A stretch of 64,000 bases of DNA, taken from assembly GCA_029243485.1 (NCBI GenBank), contig JAQWRY010000086.1:1-64000 (forward strand). Reading direction: 5' to 3'. Both the position numbers and the translations under genes were made by a program. The notes below the pieces were generated by a model. It was given only the letters and a program-made list of their open reading frames with translations. It was not told where the DNA came from and did not search any database. The stretch is from Candidatus Binatia bacterium (lineage in GTDB: Bacteria; Desulfobacterota; Binatia; UBA12015). Below, piece by piece: positions 45,657 to 62,500 of the stretch (its first letter is position 1; each line of letters begins with the position of its first letter).

Positions 45657-48600
45657 ATGTCGCCCCTTGCGAAAACCAGGTTCCTCAGCCTCGCCCTGGC
45701 GGCCCTTCTCCTCGGGCCCGCCGCCTCGGGAAGCGCCGCGGACGCTCCGCCATCCGACGAGGCCGTCTCCCAGGCGATCCGGGACGGCATCGCCTACCTA
45801 CAGCGCGAGATCGTCGAGGAACCGTATGGACTCGCATTCGCCTACTTCGTCCACCGCCGATTCGGTCTCGACGAGTTCGCGTACGCGCCCACGAGATACC
45901 AGGAACTGCTGAAGGCCACTCCCACCGAGGAGGAGAAGTCGGACGGGGGCCGTCGCAAGAAGCGGCGCTATCGCAAAGGCGAGCTGCGCCTCTTTCAACG
46001 TCTCCTCACACCCGACAGCCAATTTACCCGCGAAGATCTCGAGGTCGCCCGGGCCGACTTCGACCAGATGACGGCACGGGCGCTCTACTGCGACCGCCAC
46101 CCGCTGCCCGCCGACTTTGCCGAGACCATGGACGCCATGGCTGCAAAAGGCCGGTACCGCCTCACGCACGTCGGGCTCGCGTTGATGTGGCTCGCCGACA
46201 ACGGGTGTGAATGGCCCGTAGGTGAGAAGCGCGTGAGCGAGTGGGCCGACGCGTGGGCGCAGCAACTGCGCGACCAGCCGAAGGACGATCTCTCGTACGA
46301 AGCAGCCGGCATCCTCGCCTATCTCGGCTACGCAGACCGAATTCCGCAGGACTACATCGCCACCGTCGTCGACGCGCAGGAGGCCGATGGAGGCTGGCGT
46401 CGGGATCTCGGGCGGACGAACAGCCATTGGCACCCGACGGTCCTCGCCGTCTGGTTCCTGCTCGAAACGCAGCAATCGAGGAAGAACGACACGTTTGTTC
46501 CCCAGGGCACCGCCGAGGATCATGCACGATCCCAGAAAGAGCGACGCATCGAGAACGAGTCGATGTGGAAGTCGATGGTCGCAAGTGAAGAGCGATTGCT
46601 CGCCCTCACGCCCGACCTCACTCGACTTGCAAGAGCGATCCGAAACCTGCACCTCCCGTCCGAGCGCGTGCGAAACCTGTTCGCGGAAAAGGTCGACGTT
46701 CGAGACATCGGCGCTCCCGGAACGACATTGCCGTGGCCGGGCAGCCCGGGCGCGCAGCGACTCGAGTTCACGCTCGGCTCAGATCGCACGACCGACCGAG
46801 CCGCGCTGGACCTCTGGAGGCCGCTGCTGGAATCGGTCGAGTCGTTCGACCGCGTCGATCTCCGAATGGTCCGCGGCGCCCACGAGAAGGACGGAGAGGA
46901 GTACGAAGCCACGGTCGCTCTCGACGCGACCGCCCGCCTGTCGTCCAACGAGCGCGCCTGGGTTCGCGGGAAGCTGACCCTTCGATGGCGACTGACCTCG
47001 GACGCCGAGTCGGCGCCGTGGCGAATTGTCTCCTGGCGCACGGATGCGCTCGAACTCGTAGAGGCCCCGGCGGCCCTCTTCCAGGAGGTTCTCCCCGAGG
47101 CCCTGCGCGACGACGGCCAGATCGAGGCGGCGCGGCGTTCCGGCCACGACGAGCTCGTGCGCAGTTGGCTCGCCAACCCATCGCAGAAGCCGCATCCGCA
47201 CTTCTTCGCCCCCGCGATGGACCGGCATCCGGGCGTCGCCGTCGTCGACCTCGACGCCGACGGCTTCGACGACATCTATCTGCTCCCCCATTGGGGCAAG
47301 AACCTCTTCTATCGAAATCGCGGCGACGGAACGTTCGAGGAGATCGGCGCCGACCTGGGGCTCGACGTGGACGGGGATGCTTCTTCCGCCGTCTTTGCCG
47401 ACTTCGACAACGACGGCGACCCCGATGTGTTCATCGGGCGAACCCTCTCGCCGAGCCTCTACCTCGAGAACCAGGACGGTAAGTTCGCGGACGCCTCCGG
47501 AGACGTCGACGGCGAACTCCCCCGACTCGTGTCCTCGGTCACCGCGGTCGACGTCGATCAGGACGGTCTTCTCGACGTCTACGCTTCCACGTACGCAGTC
47601 CGGATGCTCACACGAGAGGGCCGTGCCCGCGGCCCCCGGTTGAAGGGCTTCCTACCCGAGGAAGATGGGTTGGAACTCGCGGAACGTCTCCGCACGAAGC
47701 TCGAAGTCTACGATCTCGCCGGGCCACCCAACGTCCTCCTTCGAAACGCGGGCGACGGCAAGCTCGTCGTCGATCGCAGCTCCGACCTGCGGGTGTTCAC
47801 CAATACCTACCAGTCGACCTGGGCCGACTACGACGGCGACGGCGACTCCGACGTGTACCTCGCGAACGACTTCGGACCGAACCACCTCCTACGCAACGAC
47901 GGCGCGGGAGACTTCGCCGACGTCACCCAGGAGACCGGCACGGCCGACGTCGGATTCGGCATGGGCGCCACCTGGGGCGACTACGACGGGGACGGATTCG
48001 AAGACCTCTACGTTTCGAACATGTACAGCAAGGCCGGACGACGCATCACCGAACGGATGGGTGCACTCGACCCGAGATTCCCGAAGATGGCCCGCGGGAA
48101 CACGCTCTTCCGACGCGAGGACAACAGATTCACCGACATCACCGCCGGACACAGCGACAAGGGCGGGAAGGCCGGCTGGTCGTGGGGCGGCCAGTTCGCG
48201 GATGTCGACAACGATGGCCACCTCGACCTGCACGTCTTGTCCGGCTACTACAGCGCGCCGCCGGAGTACGCGCTCCCCGTCGACACTTGAAGCACCTATT
48301 GGCGCGCGGTCGTGCGCCAGGACAAAGGACTCGAGTTCCGACCGGAGTTCCGACCACGCGGGAGCGGCGGGATCGGCGGGAGTGGGTTCTCCGAAGGTGC
48401 GTCGCTCAGCGGGCACGAACGAAACCATCTCTTCGTGAACGACGGGCGAGGCAATCTCGTGGACGCGTCGGGCGTTTCCGGGCTCGATGCACCCGCGGAC
48501 GGCCGGGCGCTCGCCTGGACCGACCTCGACCGAGACGGCTGGCTCGACTTCGTGGTCGTCAACGCGAACGCGCCGACCCTACAACTGTTCCGAAACCAGA

Positions 48601-49415
48601 TGGGCGACTCGCGGCCGGAGAACGGAGTCGTCGCAATCCGGCTGGTCGGCGGAAACACCTCGGCGAAGCCGAGTGAGAAGTGGAGCAACCGAGACGGAAT
48701 CGGCGCCAGCCTCGAGCTGCACGTGGGCGATCGCCGGCTCGTCCGTGAGCAGCGAGCGGGCGAAGGATTCGCCGCACAGAACGGATCCACGATCGTCGTG
48801 GGGATCGGCGCCGCCGAGAAGGCGGACGGAATCTTCGTCCGCTGGCCCTCCGGCCAGACCCAGGCGACCGAGGCCGTCCCGCGCGGGAGTCTCGTAACGT
48901 TCTACGAAAACCCCACGAGAGCCGGCTCCGACAGCCCGGCGAAGATCGAACCGTACGCCGTTCCCAGCGACCGGGAAGGGACCCTCCGGACCGCGTACCA
49001 ACCGAGCCGCACACCGATCGGAATCGCCGGGACGGCAGACCGAAGCGGCCGGATTCGAATCTACACGACCACCGCGACCTGGTGTGAGGTGTGTCGCTCC
49101 GAGCTCGCGGACATCGCACTCCTTCGCTCGACGTTCCCGCCCGAAGAACTGGGCCTGTACGCCGTCCCCGTCGACGAGAACGACACCCGTGAGAAACTCG
49201 AGGCCTACCTCGAAGCGAACGCGCCGGCGTACGAAATGCTCCTCGAAGTGACGCCGCCCGAAGTCGCCGACGTGAAGACTCGTATCATCGCGGCGTTGCG
49301 ACAGGACGCGCTTCCCGCTTCGATCGTCACGAACGAACGGGACGAGGTGATCGACGTGTCATGGGGCGTTCCCACCGTCTCCGATGTCCGCAGCTGGCTT
49401 CGCAACGCTCGCTGA
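45657..49415 (+). CDS. CRTAC1-type FG-GAP/ASPIC-UnbV selenoprotein with thioredoxin-like C-terminus
   Basis: One 1252-residue frame if the TGA at 48288-48290 is read as Sec878. Parts in order: Sec signal peptide (LSLALAALLLGPAASGSAA); alpha-toroid repeats (residues about 40-300, VVDAQEADGGWRRD as in prenyltransferase/terpene cyclase repeats); FG-GAP propeller (about 520-870, with DLDADGFDDIYLL and DYDGDGDSDVYLA calcium motifs); SGYYSAPPEYALPVDT-Sec-STYWRAVVRQ; more FG-GAP; ASPIC/UnbV (about 988-1085); and a thioredoxin-like domain with Cys1143-x-x-Cys1146 (TWCEVCRSEL). Downstream sequence continues in the same frame for 374 codons without damage, and a SECIS-like hairpin follows the TGA. The region after the TGA has no ribosome-binding site. 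Sec may form a redox pair with the thioredoxin domain. The alternatives are a recent nonsense mutation or two separate proteins. Confidence 0.75.
48300..48319 (+). promoter_or_regulatory. SECIS-like hairpin for Sec878, GGUC apical loop
   Basis: TGGCGCGC (48300-48307) pairs with GTGCGCCA (48312-48319) in eight steps (one G-U) around the loop GGTC (48308-48311). Seventeen nucleotides separate the UGA from the loop. The distance and the GGUC loop match the SelB-binding part of the E. coli fdhF SECIS. Confidence 0.7.
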
Positions 49416-50282
49416 TCCGAGATCGTTCTCCGCGAGCTTCTCGATCAAGTCCGGCGTGAGCTCCATGTCGGTCGCGAAGTCTCCCGCGGGGTGGTCCAGG
49501 AACCAGACGTGGAGCATCTCGGGGCTCCGCGGGGCCGCGAACCCCTTCCAGCATTCTCCGTTCTCGCTCGGCTCCCCGATCGGGAGTCCGTTCTCCCAAC
49601 AGGACGGGCGCGGCCACTGGTGGTAGTGCCAGAGCGTGAGCGGTCCCCCGATCTGCTCGCCGTGGCCCTCCTGGGTATCCGCGAGATACATGATCCCCGC
49701 CAACTTCTTTCCCTTCGGCGTGTCGTAGAACATCAGGAACTCCGGACGCTCTGGATTGAGTTCCTCGTCGTCGGCGAGGAACTCGTCGTTCGCGTAGTGC
49801 AGCCGGTCGAGTTCCTGCCTGCGGCTGAAGCCGTCGGCGAGCGCCTTCTGGTAGTCGAACCAACCCTTCGCCTTCGCCGCCTCGAGCGAGCGCTTGGCGA
49901 ATGCCTGCGCGGCCGCCTTCTGTTCCGTGGTCGGCTTCGCGTCGGGAAAGCGTGTGACCTCATAGATCCCCGGAGCGAGCCCACTGGAGCCCTTCGCCTT
50001 GTGGCCGGCATGCGGGTCCGCCGCCTTCGTATCCTTGGAGCTCTTGGCGTCCTTCTTCGCGCCCTTGTCTTTCGACCCCTTCGCCCCGCCGTGACCATCG
50101 TGGTCATGCATCGGAACGTAGCGGACCGACGTACCGTCCGAGTCGGGCGACACCTGCCACGGGGTCGGCTCCGCCGCGACCGGGTCGGGATCCTTCGCCA
50201 GCGCAGGCCCGATAGACAAGAGGATCCCAGCGCCCACTGCCAAGGAAACGATCGAGAGGTGCGGGTGTCGAAGAGCTTTCAT
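49359..50282 (-). CDS. Secreted protein with an LWHYH motif, paralogue A
   Basis: A 307-residue protein with a Sec signal peptide (LSIVSLAVGAGILLSIGPALA). A His/Lys-rich linker follows (MHDHDGHGGAKGSKDKG, then ADPHAGHKAKG), then a domain from about residue 125. Conserved marks are KGWFDYQKALADGF, LNPERPEFLMFYD, the His-rich LTLWHYHQWPRPSCWENG and SPEMLHVWFLDHPAGDF. The same marks recur in the divergent gene at 50382. Conserved His, Asp and Cys pairs suggest a metal- or heme-related extracytoplasmic domain, but I know no named family. Its 3' end overlaps the convergent selenoprotein gene by 57 nt. Confidence 0.75.
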   Translation of the reverse strand: MKALRHPHLSIVSLAVGAGILLSIGPALAKDPDPVAAEPTPWQVSPDSDGTSVRYVPMHDHDGHGGAKGSKDKGAKKDAKSSKDTKAADPHAGHKAKGSSGLAPGIYEVTRFPDAKPTTEQKAAAQAFAKRSLEAAKAKGWFDYQKALADGFSRRQELDRLHYANDEFLADDEELNPERPEFLMFYDTPKGKKLAGIMYLADTQEGHGEQIGGPLTLWHYHQWPRPSCWENGLPIGEPSENGECWKGFAAPRSPEMLHVWFLDHPAGDFATDMELTPDLIEKLAENDLGSASVAKPAADIGDGGNAP

Positions 50283-50381
50283 GGGGTCGCACTCTGCCAC
50301 CGCCCCCCGATCGAATCCAGATGAGAACCGGGCAGGTTTCGATCCTCGACCGGCTTCGGCGCAGATGATAGCAACCGCGCC

Positions 50382-51326
50382 TTGACCACCTTTCAGAGAC
50401 GATTCCCGCGCGCGCTGGCCGCTGCAGTAGTTCTCGGGTTCGGCGCGATTGCGTGTGAGCCTGCAGCACCGCCGAAGGTGGACTTCGAGAAGATCACCGC
50501 GCAGCCCCAATTCTACGCGCAGTCGATCACCCTGGCGGAAGACCCTGCGGCCGGCGTCTGCGTCACGCAGGAACGCCCGGGCGTTCCCCTGGCGAAGGCC
50601 GGTGCGACTCCCAAACTCCACGTGATTGCAGGCGAGGCCAGCGCCATCGACGCGCAGTACGCGTCAGCCCGGTTCCTGAACTACCACCCGGGCTCGGGGA
50701 AAGATGAGAAGTACCGCCAAGAGTGGTCGCCGGAAGCGGCCGCGCTACCGACCGATCCCGGAACGTACGAGATCTCGATCGCGCCCTGTGCAGCAGCGAG
50801 CGGAAGCGAGATGAACGGCGCACAACGCCTGTGGCAGGAAAGCCTGGACGCCGCGGTTCGCAACGGCTGGTTCGACTACGACAAGGCCAAGGCCGACGGC
50901 TTCCACCTCGGCCACCCCCAAGAGGAAGTACACTACGTTCACACCGACTTCGTGGGAGACGACGACGTACTGAACCCCGACAAGCCCGAGTTCCTGATGT
51001 ACTACGACTACGAGGGCACGCCGCTCCTCGCCGGCTACATGTACATGATGCCGAACGTCGAGGACCGCGGCCCGCAGGTCGGGGGCCCGCACACGCTCTG
51101 GCATTATCACGTCATGCCGGAGTTCTGTTACCGCGACGGCCTCGTGGTCGGGGCTCCGAACGACGACGGCACGTGCACCAAGGGGGATCTCACGACACGA
51201 ACCCCCGAGATGCTGCACGTGTGGTTCTTCGAACGCGACGACGGGCCGTTCGCCTCATCGATGTCGCCGGCGACGGCCTCGGGCACCAAGGGCGATCAGT
51301 TCAAATCCGTAGAACACCATCACTGA
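50382..51326 (+). CDS. Lipoprotein with an LWHYH motif, paralogue B
   Basis: A 314-residue protein starting at TTG, with a lipoprotein signal (ALAAAVVLGFGAIAC). The N-terminal half is unique (VDFEKITAQPQFYAQSITLA). The C-terminal half repeats the paralogue A domain: NGWFDYDKAKADGF, LNPDKPEFLMYYD, HTLWHYHVMPEFCYRDG, TPEMLHVWFFERDDGPFA. It is divergent from paralogue A across a 99-bp gap that must hold both promoters. Unrecognised family. Both proteins sit between the CRTAC1 selenoprotein and the HTTM operon, hinting at a shared envelope process. Confidence 0.75.
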   Translation: MTTFQRRFPRALAAAVVLGFGAIACEPAAPPKVDFEKITAQPQFYAQSITLAEDPAAGVCVTQERPGVPLAKAGATPKLHVIAGEASAIDAQYASARFLNYHPGSGKDEKYRQEWSPEAAALPTDPGTYEISIAPCAAASGSEMNGAQRLWQESLDAAVRNGWFDYDKAKADGFHLGHPQEEVHYVHTDFVGDDDVLNPDKPEFLMYYDYEGTPLLAGYMYMMPNVEDRGPQVGGPHTLWHYHVMPEFCYRDGLVVGAPNDDGTCTKGDLTTRTPEMLHVWFFERDDGPFASSMSPATASGTKGDQFKSVEHHH

Positions 51327-54665: not shown

Positions 54666-55828
54666 CCCCTCCGCATCCAGACGACCGCTCCGACCAGCAC
54701 GACGAACCCGAGCACGATGAGCCCCCAGGGGACGGAGGAAGAGGAGTCGGTCTGCGTCGCGGGCCCTGTCGCCGTGGCGGCCTCACGTGCCTCGTTCGCC
54801 GCGATGTCCGCAGCAGCGCGCACCAGGGGCTCCAGTTGGACCTCTGTCTTCGCGGCCTCCAGATCGATCCGGGGCGCGGCGATCCGACTGCGACCCGCCT
54901 CGATCACTTCGTCGACGTTCTCGAGCGTCGCCGCCGCGAGTGAACATCCGCCGAGCGAGAGAACGTTGGAGAGCGACTCCTGATCGAACCAACCCGCCTG
55001 ACCGTACTGGCCGACCCACGCGGTAAGAACGGCACGCGGCTCCATCTCCCGCGCACGGAGCGAGGGCGATGAGGACCCGCCTTCTTCGGGCGGACACTCC
55101 TCGACGAGCGCCGAAAGAGCGGCGATGCCTTCTTCTCGTTCGCCGGCGTACAACCGTGCCAACGCCGCCGCATAGCGCGCATCCGCACCGCCCGCCCCCG
55201 TTGCCATGCCGTCGTAGAGTTCAGCAGCCTCCACGTATTTTCCTTCCGCCATCAGCGCGTTGCCGAGGACAGCCTCCGCCATCAGCTGTACCGACGGCGG
55301 TAGGTGGTCGAGTTCGACGAGTTTGGAAACGGCTACGGAGGCCTCCGCCGGCGCACCCGACGCGATTGCAATCTGTGCGTCTGCAAGTCTCGCGAACTGC
55401 CCGAGCTCGGTCGGCGCTTCGGTCGCTCGCCCGAACGCGACACGAGCCTCTTCGAGTTGGCCACTAGCGGCGTGCGCCATGCCGAGGCCGAAGTAGACGT
55501 AATCGTTTAGATTCGAGTCCCCCGGTGCTGGACCTTCCGCGCCGGGAGCTTCCAGTGCTCTCTCGAACATCTTCCGAGCACTCGCGTAGTCTCCGCGCCG
55601 AAGGTGCACGTCTCCGACGAGAGCGATCGGCGGGGCGGGGAGCCCGGTCAATCCCTGTCGCGAGAGCTCGATCACGGCATCCGCGCCCGCGTCCGGATCC
55701 TTCAGGTAGTCCTGCATCGCCGTCCGCCATTCCTCGTACAGCGGGTGCTGCTCCTGCCCGAGGGCCTCCGGAGCGATCGCAACGAGAGACAGGACGACCA
55801 AGAGCGCGGCACCGGGGATCAGCCTCAT
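54662..55828 (-). CDS. TPR-repeat protein with signal peptide and C-terminal membrane anchor
   Basis: A 388-residue protein from ATG 55826-55828. It has a Sec signal (GAALLVVLSLVAIAPEALG) and a run of TPR-type helices (RRGDYASARKMFERALEA, YVYFGLGMAHAASGQLEEA, GKYVEAAELYDGMATGAG). A C-terminal helix (PWGLIVLGFVVLVGAVVW) and a basic end suggest a protein anchored at its C-terminus (BatE/Aer-like layout). First gene of a five-gene operon with the HTTM proteins. It probably scaffolds them on the periplasmic side. Confidence 0.82.
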   Translation of the reverse strand: MRLIPGAALLVVLSLVAIAPEALGQEQHPLYEEWRTAMQDYLKDPDAGADAVIELSRQGLTGLPAPPIALVGDVHLRRGDYASARKMFERALEAPGAEGPAPGDSNLNDYVYFGLGMAHAASGQLEEARVAFGRATEAPTELGQFARLADAQIAIASGAPAEASVAVSKLVELDHLPPSVQLMAEAVLGNALMAEGKYVEAAELYDGMATGAGGADARYAAALARLYAGEREEGIAALSALVEECPPEEGGSSSPSLRAREMEPRAVLTAWVGQYGQAGWFDQESLSNVLSLGGCSLAAATLENVDEVIEAGRSRIAAPRIDLEAAKTEVQLEPLVRAAADIAANEAREAATATGPATQTDSSSSVPWGLIVLGFVVLVGAVVWMRRG

Positions 55829-55962
55829 GCAGCGGAAATATCGAACGACCATTGACGCAGAGTCAAATTCCATCTTTGGGGGCTCCCGGCCCCAATCATC
55901 TCGCCTGCTGAGAGGACGCCGCTACAGCCCCTCCCATGCGGCGCACCCTACTCAAACACATG

Positions 55963-55992
55963 TTGACCTCCCCTTCACCATGTCTGTATACA
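55963..55992 (+). promoter_or_regulatory. Sigma70-type promoter in the 364-bp divergent gap
   Basis: TTGACC (55963-55968) and TATACA (55987-55992) are separated by 18 bp in an unusually AT-rich part of the gap between the TPR operon (minus) and the giant Cys-rich gene (plus). A start near 56000 would give a leader of about 190 nt before ATG 56193. Nothing else is recognisable in the gap. Confidence 0.5.
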
Positions 55993-56192
55993 TTTCGGTA
56001 TCAGAATCCGTACCAAACTCTCTTCTTAACACCTCTTACTTACAGGGGATCTTCTTGGTCCGACTCCAGCCCAACTCTGACAACACACTCGGGGCTTCCA
56101 CAGCCCCGACCCCGGCGACTTCCGTCGTCTCGACCCTAGCCCCGGTGCGCGTGCTCGCGGGGCCGCTACCCGCGAGAGCAAGGAGAATGCGG

Positions 56193-58856
56193 ATGACCCT
56201 CTCGACCCTCAGGCGGGAGCCTGACCACTTTTCCTGGAAAGCAAATCTAGGCCTCACACTCCTAGGAGCGGCTATAATGCTGTTCGCTCCGTCGTATGCC
56301 GATGCGCAGTGTAACGGCGACTTCGGGACGACCTGCAATGCCAGCATCGCGAGCGCAAACAACGATGGCACGAATCACAGCCCGTCCTGCGGCAACCAGT
56401 GCGGCGGTGCCGGCCCCAGTGACGATCGTGGTTACGGCTTCACCGCTCCGGTGACGGGCGTGTACAACTTCTCGTTGGCGAACAACTACGACGCCGTTCT
56501 CCAGGTCCGTAACGGCTTCTGCTCGACGGGCGGCGGGAACCTCGGCTGCGCCGACAGCGCCGGCAGCGGCGGCACCGAGCAGCTCAACGTGGCTCTGGCC
56601 GCCGGACAAGCGGTCACGGTCTGGGCGGACGGCTTTGACGACTTCGTCTCGGGGTTCTTCGGCTTTGACGAGTGTAACCAGAGCCAGGGTAACTTCACGC
56701 TGACGATCACCGGACCGGGCACCTGCTTCGTGTGCGGCAACGGCACGATCGAAGGCCCTGAGCAGTGCGAGGGCGGTGCTTGCTGTACCGGCTCCAGCTG
56801 TCTGTTCCGGCCGTCGTCGTTCACATGCCGCAGCGGCTCGGGCGACTCCTGCGATCCGTCCGAATCCTGCTCGGGCGGAAGCGCGAGCTGCCCCAGTGAC
56901 ACCGTCCTAGGCGCTGGCACCCTGTGCAGGTCTGGTTCGGGCGACTCCTGTGACCCGGACGAGGCCTGCACGGGCGCCCCCGCCCAGGCGTGTCCCACCG
57001 ACATCGTGCAGCCGAACACCGCGGTCTGCCGCAACGGCTCCGGCGACTCCTGTGACCCCGACGAGCTCTGCACTGGCAGCGCCGGCGTCGCCTGCCCGGG
57101 TGACACGATCACCTCGGCGGGAACGGTCTGCAACGCCGGTTCCGGAGATCTCTGCGATACCGATGAAACCTGCTCCGGCTCCGCCGGCGCCGCCTGCCCG
57201 GCCGACTCGTTCGAGCCGACTACGACACTCTGCAACCCGGGCTCCGGCGACCTCTGTGACGTCGACGAGTTCTGCCCCGGCGCCGCGGATGGCGCCTGTC
57301 CTTCCGACACCGTCGCCAGCTCGGGCACGACCTGCCGCGCCGGCTCCGGTGACATTTGTGATCCCGATGAGACCTGCAGCGGCCTCGCGGACGATCCCTG
57401 CACGGCCGACATCGTTCTGTCGGCGGGCACCGTCTGTAACGCCGGCTCCGGTGATCTCTGCGATCGCGACGAGACCTGCTCCGGCAGCGCCGGCGTCGCC
57501 TGCCCGGCCGATTCGGTCGAGCCTGCGACGACCGTCTGCCGCGCGGGTTCGGGTACGCCGAACGGCGGCCTCGAGTGTGATCCCGCCGAGCTCTGCACCG
57601 GCGTCGCCGATGCGGCTTGCCCAGGCGACGCTGTTCTGAGTTCTGGGACGGTCTGCAACGCTGGTGGCGGCGACCCGAACGGATCGGGCTTCACCTGTGA
57701 CACCGACGAAGTTTGCTCGGGCACGCTCCTCGATGCCTGCCCGGTCGACTCCATTTCGGGCGCCGGCACGGTCTGTAACGCCGGTGGCGGCGATCCGAAC
57801 TCCTCGGGCTTCACCTGTGATCCGGATGAAGTCTGTGACGGCGCGGCCGACACGGCCTGCCCGGCCGATTCGTTCTCTCCGGCCGCGACCGTTTGTAACG
57901 CCGGCTCCGGCGATCCGAACAGCTCCGGCTTCACCTGTGACACCGACGAGGTCTGCGACGGCTCTGCCGACACGGCCTGTCCGGCGGATGCCCTCTCGGG
58001 CGCCGGCACCCTCTGCAACGAGGGCTCGGGCGATCCGAACTTCTCCGGTGTGGTCTGTGACCCCGACGAGAGCTGCTCGGGTGTCCCCGACGATCCGTGC
58101 GCGGCGGACAACATCCTGCCCGCCGGATCGCTGTGCCGCGCCGGTTTCAGCGAGTGTGACGCCAGCGAATCTTGCAGCGGCGTCGCGGACGACCCGTGTG
58201 CTCTGACGGGTGACTACCCTGACGGCACCTCTTGCTACAGCGGCTCGGGAATCGTCGACCCGCACAACCCTCCGCCCACGACGGTGCCCCTGCCGTGTAA
58301 CGACGGCGAGTGCATCTGCTTCGGCGGACGCTGCATCGGACCTGGTCAGAACGACCTGGTCATCGACAAGGCCAAGGCGAAGGTTTCCAAGTCCGGCAAG
58401 AGCACCGGCCTGGTCAAGATCGAAGGCCTGATCATGGACGAAGAGACCGAGCCCGCCGTCTTCGGTGGCGACTTCCGCTTGCAGTTGCTGGCCGGAAACG
58501 TCGACGTCTTCATCTCGGACGCTGCCGGCCTTTCGCTAACGACGACCATCGACGGCTGCACCGAGACCAGAACCGGCCAGATCATCAGGTGTAAGGACGG
58601 TGATCTCAAAGCAACGTTCCGGCTCACCAATGCCGGTCCCGTGGCCTACGACATGAAGCTGAACATCAAAGGACTCACGTCTGGTCAAACGGGCATTGGT
58701 CCTCTCACCCCGCCTGTGACCGCCAGCCTGTTCCAAGGCTCTGATCCCTTCTACCGGGTCGAGCGCGCTGGCAACATCGGAATCGTCGCCGGCGTCTGCA
58801 CAGTCAGCGGTTCGGGCCAGAGCATGAAATGCAAAGAACCCAAACAGCTAAACTAG
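56193..58856 (+). CDS. Giant secreted protein with tandem disintegrin-like Cys repeats
   Basis: An 887-residue protein. ATG 56193 is preferred because AGGAG lies 7 nt upstream (ATG 56187 would be too close). Signal peptide: ANLGLTLLGAAIMLFAPSYA. Residues about 35-180 are a pre-peptidase-C-like beta domain (YGFTAPVTGVYNFSLANNYD). CGNGTIEGPEQCEGGACC then begins a disintegrin-like unit, followed by 13 tandem repeats of pattern C-x4-D-x-C-D-x2-E-x-C-x-G-x5-C-x2-D. A hinge (CNDGECICFGGRC) leads to a C-terminal beta domain of about 165 residues that appears again in the next two genes. Expected outside the cell. An adhesion or structural role is inferred only. Confidence 0.85.
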   Translation: MTLSTLRREPDHFSWKANLGLTLLGAAIMLFAPSYADAQCNGDFGTTCNASIASANNDGTNHSPSCGNQCGGAGPSDDRGYGFTAPVTGVYNFSLANNYDAVLQVRNGFCSTGGGNLGCADSAGSGGTEQLNVALAAGQAVTVWADGFDDFVSGFFGFDECNQSQGNFTLTITGPGTCFVCGNGTIEGPEQCEGGACCTGSSCLFRPSSFTCRSGSGDSCDPSESCSGGSASCPSDTVLGAGTLCRSGSGDSCDPDEACTGAPAQACPTDIVQPNTAVCRNGSGDSCDPDELCTGSAGVACPGDTITSAGTVCNAGSGDLCDTDETCSGSAGAACPADSFEPTTTLCNPGSGDLCDVDEFCPGAADGACPSDTVASSGTTCRAGSGDICDPDETCSGLADDPCTADIVLSAGTVCNAGSGDLCDRDETCSGSAGVACPADSVEPATTVCRAGSGTPNGGLECDPAELCTGVADAACPGDAVLSSGTVCNAGGGDPNGSGFTCDTDEVCSGTLLDACPVDSISGAGTVCNAGGGDPNSSGFTCDPDEVCDGAADTACPADSFSPAATVCNAGSGDPNSSGFTCDTDEVCDGSADTACPADALSGAGTLCNEGSGDPNFSGVVCDPDESCSGVPDDPCAADNILPAGSLCRAGFSECDASESCSGVADDPCALTGDYPDGTSCYSGSGIVDPHNPPPTTVPLPCNDGECICFGGRCIGPGQNDLVIDKAKAKVSKSGKSTGLVKIEGLIMDEETEPAVFGGDFRLQLLAGNVDVFISDAAGLSLTTTIDGCTETRTGQIIRCKDGDLKATFRLTNAGPVAYDMKLNIKGLTSGQTGIGPLTPPVTASLFQGSDPFYRVERAGNIGIVAGVCTVSGSGQSMKCKEPKQLN
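56826..58235 (+). repeat. Array of 13 coding repeats (disintegrin-like), 102-120 bp each
   Basis: Units 1-7 are 34 codons (C-R/N-x-G-S-G-D-x-C-D). Units 8-12 carry an insertion of five or six residues (as in GGGDPNSSGFTCDTDE), and unit 13 is shorter. Conserved DNA words such as TGTAACGCCGG recur, showing amplification by unequal crossing-over. Confidence 0.85.
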
Positions 58857-59599: not shown

Positions 59600-62500
59600 A
59601 TGATCCGTTTTCTCGCTGGGTCGAACCCCGCATCTGCCGCAGGCCTATGCGGCGCACTGGCCCTGCTCTTCACCGCAGCCCCCGCGGCCGCGCAGTGGAT
59701 GTTCACCGACGTCACCGCGACAGCGCAGATCACGCATGTCCACGACGGGTACACCGGCGGCTCCGACATCATGGAGATGGCGTTCTGCGGCGGCGTGGCC
59801 TCGGGCGACTACGACAACGACGGCTGGATCGACCTCTACGTGATCGGGGGCTCGACGGTTCCGAACCTGCTGTACCGCAACAAGGGCGACGGCACGTTCG
59901 AAGACAAGGCGACGTTTGCCGGAGTCGACCTCACGATGGACGGCTGCGGCGCTGCGTTCGGCGACTACGACGGCGACGGGTGGTTGGATCTAATCGTCAC
60001 GGGCTTCGACGGAGAGTCCAACTACCTATTGCGCAACAAGGGCGACGGCACGTTCGAAGACAAAAGCGTGAACCTACCCATGAATCGCCTCAACAACTTG
60101 AGCGCGTCCTTCGTGGATTACGACCGCGACGGCGACATCGACATCTTCGTCACCCACTGGGAAGAGGGCGAGATCACCCCGCCGCCGGCGGACGAGCATC
60201 TCTGGCAGAACAATGGGACCGGCGTGTTCACCGACGTGACGACCGCCGCCGAGATTTTAGTGGATCACGAACCCCTGAACCACGTCGATCGATCCTTTAC
60301 CCCGATCTTCGCCGACTCGAACAGCGACGGATGGCTCGACATGCTGCTCGCTTCCGACTTTGGAAGAAGCCGGGTCTTCGAGAGCGACGGTGATGCGACC
60401 TTTACCGACGTCACCGACCCCGCCGTCATCACCGATGAGAACGGCATGGGGGCCGCCGTCTGCGACTACGACAACGACGGCGACCTCGATTGGTTCGTCA
60501 CCAGCATCCACAACACCCTTACCGGCAAGAGTGGCAATCGCCTGTACCGCAACATCTCCGGCGCCAGCACCGCCTTCGAAGAAGTCAGCGCGGCCGCGGG
60601 CGTCCGAGTCGGCCACTGGGGCTGGGGCGCGACCTGCCAGGACATGAACCTCGACGGCTGGCCAGACCTCCTGCACGTGAACGGCTGGTTTGGCACCGTA
60701 CCACACAACGTCCAGTACGAGACGGATCCGGCGCTCCTCTACGTCTCCAATGGCGACGGCACGTTCACCGACGAGGCCGCCACGCGAAACATCGACGACA
60801 CCGGCCGCGGCCTTGGCGTCGTCGCGTTCGACTACGACCGAGATGGCGACCTCGACGTCTTCATAGCCAACAACGATGCTGCGCCGACACTGTACCGCAA
60901 CGATGGCCTCACCGAGAACTACCTCACGGTAAAACTCGATGGGCTCGCGCCCAACACACAGAGCATCGGTTCTCGCGTTCTCGTCACCGTGAACGGGTCG
61001 ACCCAGATGCGCGAGATCCGAGCCGGCAGCAACTACCTCTCCCAAGACCCGGCGGAAGCGCACTTCGGCCTCGCCGGATCCACGCAGGCCGACACGGTCG
61101 AGATCCAGTGGTTCCTCGGCGGTACGACGACGATGACCAGCGTCGCCGGCAACCAGGTTCTGACCATCACCGAGCCGGCCAACACGTGCGGCGACGGCGT
61201 CGTCGACGCGGGCGAACAGTGCGACCTCGGCGCCGCGAACGGCGCTGTCTCCTGCTGCCAGGTGAACTGCCGAAGGAGCCCTTCCGGACACACCTGCCGC
61301 GACGAGGCGGGCCTCTGTGACACGGCAGAGACGTGCGACGGCATCGCCGACACGTGTCCGGCCGACGGCGTCGTGGCCGGCGGGACCGAGTGCCGCGCCG
61401 TCGCGGACGTGTGCGACGTCGCGGAAGTGTGCGACGGCATCGCCACTACCTGTCCGACCGACGCATTCGAGCCTGTGACGACCGAGTGCCGAGGTATGGC
61501 CGGTGTCTGCGATGTCGCGGAAATGTGCACCGGCACCGAGGCCGCCTGCCCGGCGGATTTCAAGAGCACCGCCGAATGCCGCGGCCCGGCGGATGTTTGC
61601 GACGTTGCCGAGACCTGTAACGGCCTCGCCAACGATTGCCCCACCGACGGCGTGGCGCCGAACACGACCGAATGCCGGGGCACTGCCGGCGTCTGCGACA
61701 TCGCGGAAACCTGCGACGGCGTCGGCATCGCGTGCCCGGCGGATTCCAAGAGCACCGCCGAATGCCGAGCCGTCGCCGACGTTTGTGACGTCGCCGAGAG
61801 CTGTGACGGCGCAGGCGATATCTGCCCGGCCGATGGCTTCTCGACCCCCGGCCTCGAGTGCCGCGCGAGTGCCGACGTTTGCGACATCGCCGAAACCTGC
61901 ACCGGGTCCAGCAGCAGCTGCCCCAACGATGGATTTGCGTCGGCCGGCCTCGAATGCCGAGCGTCGGTCGCCAACTGCGACGTCGCGGAAGTCTGCACCG
62001 GAACCGGCGCGAGCTGCCCGGCCAACGGGTTCGAGACAGCCGGTACCGAGTGCCGCGCCGGTGCAGGTCTCTGCGACATCGCAGAGACCTGCACCGGATC
62101 AGCGCCGAGCTGCCCTGGGGACGCGCACAGGGCCGCCGGAATCGAGTGCCGCGCGGAAGCGGACGTTTGTGACGTCGGCGAAGCCTGTACCGGGCTCAGC
62201 CCGATGTGCCCAGCCGACGGATTCGAGAGTGCCGCGACGGAATGCCGCGGTGCTGCCGGCGCCTGCGACATGGCCGAGGTCTGCACCGGAACGGGTGTCA
62301 CCTGTCCGAGCGATTCGAAGAGCACCTCAGAATGCCGCGCAGCGAGCGACCTGTGCGACGACGCCGAGGTCTGCGACGGCATCGTCGACGGCTGCCCCGT
62401 GGATGCGGTGACCGTGGTCGGAGCGGAGTGCCGCGCAGCGAGCGACGTCTGCGACGTCGCGGAAGCCTGCGACGGCGTCGCGAAGGCGTGCCCCTCCGAT

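Follow-up and report, generated by a model that had tools for sequence, protein, structure and literature searches.

The 64,000-nt stretch of DNA analysed here (the window) is from contig JAQWRY010000086.1 of a Candidatus Binatia bacterium. On its forward strand, positions 45657..49415 hold a gene of 1252 codons, if an internal TGA is counted as selenocysteine (Sec) and a second TGA as the stop. An earlier note on the window had described 877 codons, a TGA at 48288-48290 and 374 further codons in the same frame. Reading the frame 45657-49415 with TGA left open confirmed this arrangement: the internal TGA is codon 878, the terminal TGA lies at 49413-49415 and no other in-frame stop occurs before the gene end. 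All features of the gene given below are on the forward strand. The first 27 codons (45657..45737) encode a likely signal peptide, called by eye from a hydrophobic stretch that ends in ASGSA. Pfam matches over cut-off were PF13517 (139.1 bits) and PF01839 (54.9 bits), which are FG-GAP repeats, and PF07593 (47.7 bits, cut-off 23.4). The last of these, the UnbV_ASPIC domain, occupies residues 1014-1079 (48696..48893). It therefore lies 3′ of the TGA, and the view of the earlier note that the FG-GAP/ASPIC-UnbV architecture is completed after the TGA holds. A thioredoxin-like domain follows at about residues 1127-1252 (49035..49412) and includes the motif CEVC, read from the sequence, with Cys1143 and Cys1146 (49083..49094). 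This domain, also claimed before, was recovered by a profile search, in which the family profile hit TlpA, ResA and StoA chains, and by a structure search, in which the modelled tail resembled StoA (3erw) and other thioredoxin-family chains. The AhpC/TSA match of Pfam over TWCEVC (16.5 vs 26 bits) and the ResA model of NCBIfam (19.3 vs 170 bits) were below their cut-offs. As these curated cut-offs were not reached, we label the tail thioredoxin-like and not ResA or TlpA.

The TGA is followed by a hairpin of the type of a selenocysteine insertion sequence (SECIS) at 48299..48320. Its sequence is UUGGCGCGC-GGUC-GUGCGCCAG, in which 48299-48307 pair with 48312-48320 and GGUC (48308-48311) forms the loop. 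The GGUC loop and its distance of 17 nt from the UGA had been noticed before and stand; the stem has nine pairs, two being G-U. According to PMC13188914, a bacterial SECIS has a loop of 3-9 nt with G in the first two positions, a stem of 4-16 bp, a spacing of 16-37 nt and an energy of at most -7.5 kcal/mol. The window hairpin satisfies these rules.

The TGA is conserved among relatives. Among 98 related genomes, six had matches at E <= 1e-60, and all six carried one in-frame TGA at the same codon. A phylum-wide search of 395 genomes gave four matches with one TGA each. Two of them were new relative to the first search and read GGDL-TGA-SFFWR at the site. Thus, one in-frame TGA was present in the gene in 8/8 distinct genomes found by genome search; in two of the genomes, G001 and G002, the match to the window gene was full-length. 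We also scanned named genomes with six TGA-type rows as seeds and retained the best 80 matches, which yielded at least 78 loci. These scan loci and six loci of the genome searches gave an alignment of 99 frames, of which 86 had a letter at the site and 13 were gapped. The letter was TGA in 69 rows (in 61 loci), Glu in seven, Asn in six, and Ser, Val, Ile and Thr in one each. Neither TAA nor TAG occurred at the site in any of the 99 frames, gapped rows included. As TGA rows served as seeds of the scan, 69/86 is a measure of breadth and not of frequency. Judged by record titles, the TGA loci belong to Myxococcota, Acidobacteriota, Gemmatimonadota, Planctomycetota, Verrucomicrobiota and Candidatus Latescibacterota. 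Eight loci (L047, L049, L052, L081, L082, L084, L085 and L092) had two TGA-type genes close to each other.

Database proteins gave a different picture of the same site. From the best 120 of 5593 matches, with a length of 0.55-1.75 times the query required, 119 homologues were counted after P0058 was removed as too long. The seven closest (63-66% identity) stop exactly at LPVDT or LPIDT. Among these matches the remaining ones had Glu (107), Cys (2), Ser (2) and Asp (1) at the site, and because of the length filter truncated TGA-type records were largely missed and Glu types favoured. The earlier note had proposed to look for Cys or TGA in homologues across PVDT-x-STYWR. TGA in 69/86 rows and Cys in 2/119 homologues agree with its idea, and the usual replacement does not. 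Judging from the homologues seen, the putative Sec is replaced mostly by Glu or Asn and rarely by Cys. This is not what one would expect of a selenoprotein.

The hairpin was compared in the same loci. We required the hairpin alone to reach -7.5 kcal/mol; control windows were taken from these open frames at every tenth codon. The SECIS rules were satisfied at 45/69 TGA loci, compared with 2/17 sense-codon loci and 545/8247 control windows. A looser rule, requiring a stem of at least six pairs, raised the count to 54/69 for TGA loci and left 2/17 for sense loci. Synonymous recoding of the 69 TGA loci also favoured the hairpin (mean score 10.6 vs 6.7). Covariation was surveyed in 50/69 TGA loci (34 + 16), in two stem registers that were picked after inspecting the sequences. 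In the main register (33 distinct rows), 89.6% of cells were paired and both sides had changed in three pairs. In the second register (14 distinct rows), 94.0% were paired and one pair occurred as UA, AU, CG, GC and GU. The covariation score of each register was reached by 0/500 shuffles; in the second register, two covariation measures were no better than shuffles (reached by 460 and 73 of 500). Shared descent and a conserved peptide can beat shuffles without any structure, and the contrast between TGA and sense loci is the stronger argument. The codon in the loop, residue 885, was Val in 39/42 TGA rows and Ala in the rest, and Met in 29/32 Glu rows. A search of Rfam over 48200-48500 returned a single chance-level match, to a long non-coding RNA family on the opposite strand.

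The machinery for Sec insertion is present. In the genome of the window (97.5% complete), selA scored 544.6 bits (cut-off 267.9) and selB, directly after it, 348.8 (cut-off 242.25). This pair is on the contig of the TGA gene, about 115 kb away; so is the gene of tRNA-Sec, selC (75.6 bits, cut-off 47), and selD (285.4 bits, cut-off 125) is on another contig. All four genes named for checking in the earlier note were thus found. In 14 control genomes, scores over cut-off were obtained for selB in two, selA in one, selD in two and tRNA-Sec in five, so marginal scores of tRNA-Sec mean little. In the six TGA-matching genomes, selB was over cut-off in five, selA in five and selD in six. The comparison of selB covered 38 of the 55 named loci of TGA type and 12 of the 14 with sense codons only: it was over cut-off in 35/38 genomes of TGA type vs 8/12 with a sense codon (Fisher P = 0.048). 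The three misses of TGA type comprised G103 (selB 235 bits, tRNA-Sec 73.2 bits), G128 (a marginal tRNA-Sec of 49.2 bits) and G122 (2.2 Mb; nothing over cut-off). Two of the four sense-codon genomes without selB, G144 and G141, retain tRNA-Sec (71.8 and 64.6 bits). The selA and selB open reading frames (ORFs) of the window genome both terminate in TGA. It follows that TGA is a stop in this genome and would be recoded by context. A general reassignment of TGA was ruled out, as selA, selB and the TGA gene itself stop at TGA.

The coding sequence is under selection on both sides of the TGA. In five close relatives, the ratio of nonsynonymous to synonymous differences per site (pN/pS) was 0.35-0.64 upstream and 0.37-0.69 downstream of the TGA; synonymous sites were almost saturated. 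Purifying selection is similar on either side. Residues 291-1252 (46527..49412) were modelled with AlphaFold2, with Cys in place of Sec, and gave a mean predicted local distance difference test (pLDDT) of 94.1 and a predicted template modelling score (pTM) of 0.94. The model has a helical start, an FG-GAP propeller, the UnbV domain and a thioredoxin-like tail. Residue 878 lies inside the propeller, where it opens a ten-residue helix between propeller strands. The top match in the PDB was CRTAC1 (9etn_A, E = 9.8e-25, template modelling score 0.71 by target length, 17% identity in the structural alignment). In these predictions, the read-through protein forms a well-scored CRTAC1-like propeller to which a thioredoxin domain of ResA/TlpA-like type is joined. 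Gln846 of the TGA rows is replaced by Cys in 28/32 Glu rows, and Lys792 and Ser918 differ by type too. These differences may mark an altered active site, or shared descent alone.

We then surveyed how the putative Sec and the CxxC of the thioredoxin-like domain are distributed. A tree of 95 rows was built by a quick search with the Sec letter excluded and rooted at the midpoint. TGA rows were found in both deep halves (29/42 and 40/53), and the Sec label needed 9 changes, compared with 22.9 for shuffled labels. A Glu clade from Verrucomicrobiota is nested within TGA rows, the Asn rows form one clade, and both Cys rows adjoin TGA rows. These placements suggest that Sec is probably old and was lost several times. 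Among the 69 TGA loci, 42 have a thioredoxin-like domain with CxxC, 24 have no such domain and three (L022, L023 and L063) match it without CxxC. In L022 (G068) and L023 (G031), the N-terminal helical domain of the window protein sits C-terminally, in place of the thioredoxin-like domain. With these two excluded, CxxC is retained in 42/43 domain-bearing TGA loci. Among the Glu homologues in the database matches, nine kept CxxC, 69 had the domain without it and 29 lacked the domain. The motif was therefore lost in 69/78 domain-bearing Glu homologues, and also in 4/4 domain-bearing Asn loci. The seven Glu loci comprised two with CxxC, two with the domain only and three without the domain; the six Asn loci comprised none, four and two, respectively, and the other four sense loci had no domain. 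CxxC was kept in the Cys (2/2) and Ser (2/2) database homologues and lost in the single Asp one. On a tree of 79 rows, CxxC losses were confined to Sec-free lineages, except L063. Since the Glu and Asn clades, which lack Sec, have mostly lost CxxC as well, we propose an internal relay between them. For this relay, suggested by sequence comparison, the odds are about even. The earlier note had linked Sec878 to Cys1143 and Cys1146; the joint losses lend this indirect support, and the relay itself stays a proposal.

Conservation across phyla, the SECIS-type hairpin and the presence of selA, selB, tRNA-Sec and selD make Sec the most likely meaning of the TGA. We put a probability of roughly 0.9 on the reading in which codon 878 encodes Sec and the product is a predicted exported selenoenzyme with a CRTAC1-type propeller, whose Sec would be recharged by its own thioredoxin-like CxxC. 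What we observe is the conserved codon, the hairpin, the sel genes, purifying selection before and after the TGA, the fold in the model and the joint loss of Sec and CxxC; the Sec insertion, the export, the substrate and the relay are what we infer. SelB with Sec-tRNA would bind the GGUC-loop hairpin 3′ of the UGA, and the ribosome would put in Sec instead of stopping. Translation past the UGA would complete the propeller and add the UnbV and thioredoxin-like domains. Sec at the start of a helix, as in the model, would favour a reactive selenolate, which could attack an oxidised substrate (a peroxide or a disulfide), and the CEVC domain would then re-reduce Sec.

Several observations weigh against this reading. 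The 42-mer with the window hairpin folds at -15.7 kcal/mol (z = -1.42), and 23/200 shuffles were as stable. The sequence is G+C-rich, so that its energy alone is only mildly unusual, and the significance of the hairpin has to come from the comparison across relatives. There, 24/69 TGA loci failed the strict hairpin rule, and synonymous recoding reached P <= 0.05 in only 22/69 loci (P = 0.098 for the window). One genome with the TGA (G002, 87% complete) yielded neither selA nor selB, with tRNA-Sec at 70.2 bits. SelB is frequent in the class anyway (76/98 genomes) and is also present in the 8/12 sense-type genomes given above. Cys homologues are scarce, and each of the two among the 119 database homologues adjoins TGA rows on the tree. 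The link between Sec and CxxC is backed by only three independent pairs, for which we claim no significance. The relay cannot be general either, as 24/69 TGA loci have no thioredoxin-like domain; such members would need a separate reductant.

If the TGA were a true stop, the gene would encode a truncated propeller, and the remainder would be a second protein starting near GTG 48312, or would not be made. An ORF starting at GTG 48312 does exist, and databases store such halves separately, with 319 short proteins that match the C-terminal one. However, the stop at the site is always TGA and never TAA or TAG, homologues with a sense codon encode a single chain, and in the model the break falls within the propeller. 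The excess of hairpins at TGA over sense loci also argues against termination, which we consider very improbable. Slightly less improbable, and still unlikely, is that an ordinary amino acid is inserted at the TGA, or that read-through is only partial and yields a short form next to the long one. One could imagine a short exported form, but the SECIS-type hairpin and the sel genes go with the TGA and Cys-bearing sister rows exist. A sequencing error or a decaying gene, for which we found no evidence, has a negligible probability, given that 61 loci share the TGA at this codon, pN/pS values that are alike on either side and the lack of a further in-frame stop before the end. The pseudogene and sequencing-error candidates were ruled out by the 6/6 genomes, the 69/86 rows and pN/pS.

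The alternative that we take most seriously concerns the role of the residue. Sec might be inserted without being paired with the thioredoxin-like CxxC, and might bind a metal or work with another partner. The TGA loci without a thioredoxin-like domain favour this view, and Glu and Asn as replacements are compatible with a ligand or structural role. Yet both Cys homologues retain CxxC, and in the Glu and Asn clades it has for the most part disappeared. We regard an unpaired Sec as a real possibility, somewhat short of an even chance.

The Sec reading bears on how such genes are stored. Among 7998 scored proteins, the 319 short ones matched the C-terminal half at E <= 0.001; at their source, some are named thiol-disulfide isomerase/thioredoxin, peroxiredoxin or ASPIC/UnbV domain-containing protein. 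For 5/7 truncated homologues, a C-terminal half was listed from a source whose longest contig was of equal size (16663, 50454, 387767, 71699 and 21521 bases); 50454 bases is also the size of the L019 contig. Public databases appear to cut genes of this family in two, and hundreds of them may be stored as two unrelated half-proteins. In the widest version of our proposal, these genes would form an ancient, uncatalogued superfamily in at least six phyla, of exported Sec propellers, many with a relay through a thioredoxin tail; lineages that lose Sec would take Glu or Asn while the relay decays, and hundreds of the genes would be halved in databases. We hold this about as probable as not. If the TGA encodes Sec, a large family of a kind absent from the 2026 catalogue would join the prokaryotic selenoproteome, many split gene models would be explained, and Myxococcota, Acidobacteriota, Planctomycetota, Verrucomicrobiota and other environmental phyla would be candidates for a selenium-dependent function. 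It would also give a testable handle on the role of bacterial CRTAC1/UnbV proteins. With Glu or Asn, and seldom Cys, as the usual counterpart of Sec, the habit of discovering selenoproteins by pairing TGA with Cys homologues is called into question.

No gene neighbour common to the whole family was found by one clustering and by Pfam on seven neighbouring ORFs, L019's included. About 6 kb downstream of the TGA gene, the window contains a gene for a Cys-rich protein with a Disintegrin match in Pfam (55710-58853, forward strand). A Disintegrin-type Cys-rich gene lies directly upstream of the TGA gene in L019 (Pfam) and in L020, L022 and L023 (clustering). The protein could be a disulfide-rich partner. 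At some loci of Acidobacteriota and Planctomycetota, genes for HMG-CoA reductase, a flavin adenine dinucleotide (FAD) oxidoreductase and an acyltransferase stand beside paired TGA genes, and the related L086 locus has a polyketide synthase. In the window, the ORFs at 49359-50621 (reverse strand) and 50382-51326 (forward strand) have a stretch MLHVWF in common, which makes them look paralogous. Pfam matched neither of them, and the former overlaps the last 57 nt of the TGA gene on the opposite strand. We rejected a second Sec paralogue in the same genome after a relaxed search, in which a single match was full and 18 others were short FG-GAP hits. One of the short matches (L111), inspected in one frame, contains a TGA. 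A further FG-GAP protein is encoded at 59792-61258 (forward strand; open frame of 1298 amino acids), which matches the family profile piecemeal and has no in-frame TGA.

The earlier note had suggested a probable new selenoprotein family. The suggestion is supported, but the family extends well beyond a single protein. In the portion of PMC13188914 (May 2026) at hand, Table 1 catalogues 119 prokaryotic selenoprotein families and subfamilies, and none of these is an FG-GAP or UnbV selenoprotein. FG-GAP, VCBS, CRTAC and UnbV are unmentioned in the main text of PMC12013277 and PMC9312934. Full-text searches of the open-licence literature found no co-mention of selenocysteine with FG-GAP, selenoprotein with UnbV or selenocysteine with VCBS. 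Papers on selenoprotein and CRTAC1 concern human or animal material, extracellular vesicles or reviews, judging from titles and the starts of abstracts, and those on selenoprotein, beta-propeller, bacterial and SECIS concern, by title, fish, human or general selenoproteins. No earlier report was found in the open-licence literature; one may exist elsewhere, including among the Planctomycete candidates in table S9 of PMC4807772, a table not available to us. In NCBIfam 20.0, no model, selenoprotein families included, was over cut-off for the P0001 or L024 protein.

Three known systems invite comparison. CRTAC1 and the ASPIC-UnbV proteins (PF07593, FG-GAP; 9etn) resemble the window protein in FG-GAP repeats, UnbV domain and fold. 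In contrast to them, the window protein has a Sec codon in the propeller, and many members of its family have a thioredoxin-like tail. CRTAC1-type FG-GAP genes are reported in PMC12758564 to adjoin homologues of hydrazine synthase. Bacterial selenoproteins that depend on SelB and SECIS likewise have an in-frame UGA, a rule-conforming downstream hairpin and sel genes. Compared with the families in Table 1 of PMC13188914, the window family differs in its FG-GAP/UnbV architecture and in that Sec is replaced mostly by Glu or Asn, not by Cys. The same source describes a UGC-containing TlpA family, and a ResA/TlpA-like domain is common to these selenoproteins and the window protein. However, as described there, TlpA selenoproteins have Sec within the thioredoxin motif, whereas in the window protein this motif is CEVC and the predicted Sec belongs to the propeller, 265 residues upstream of the motif.

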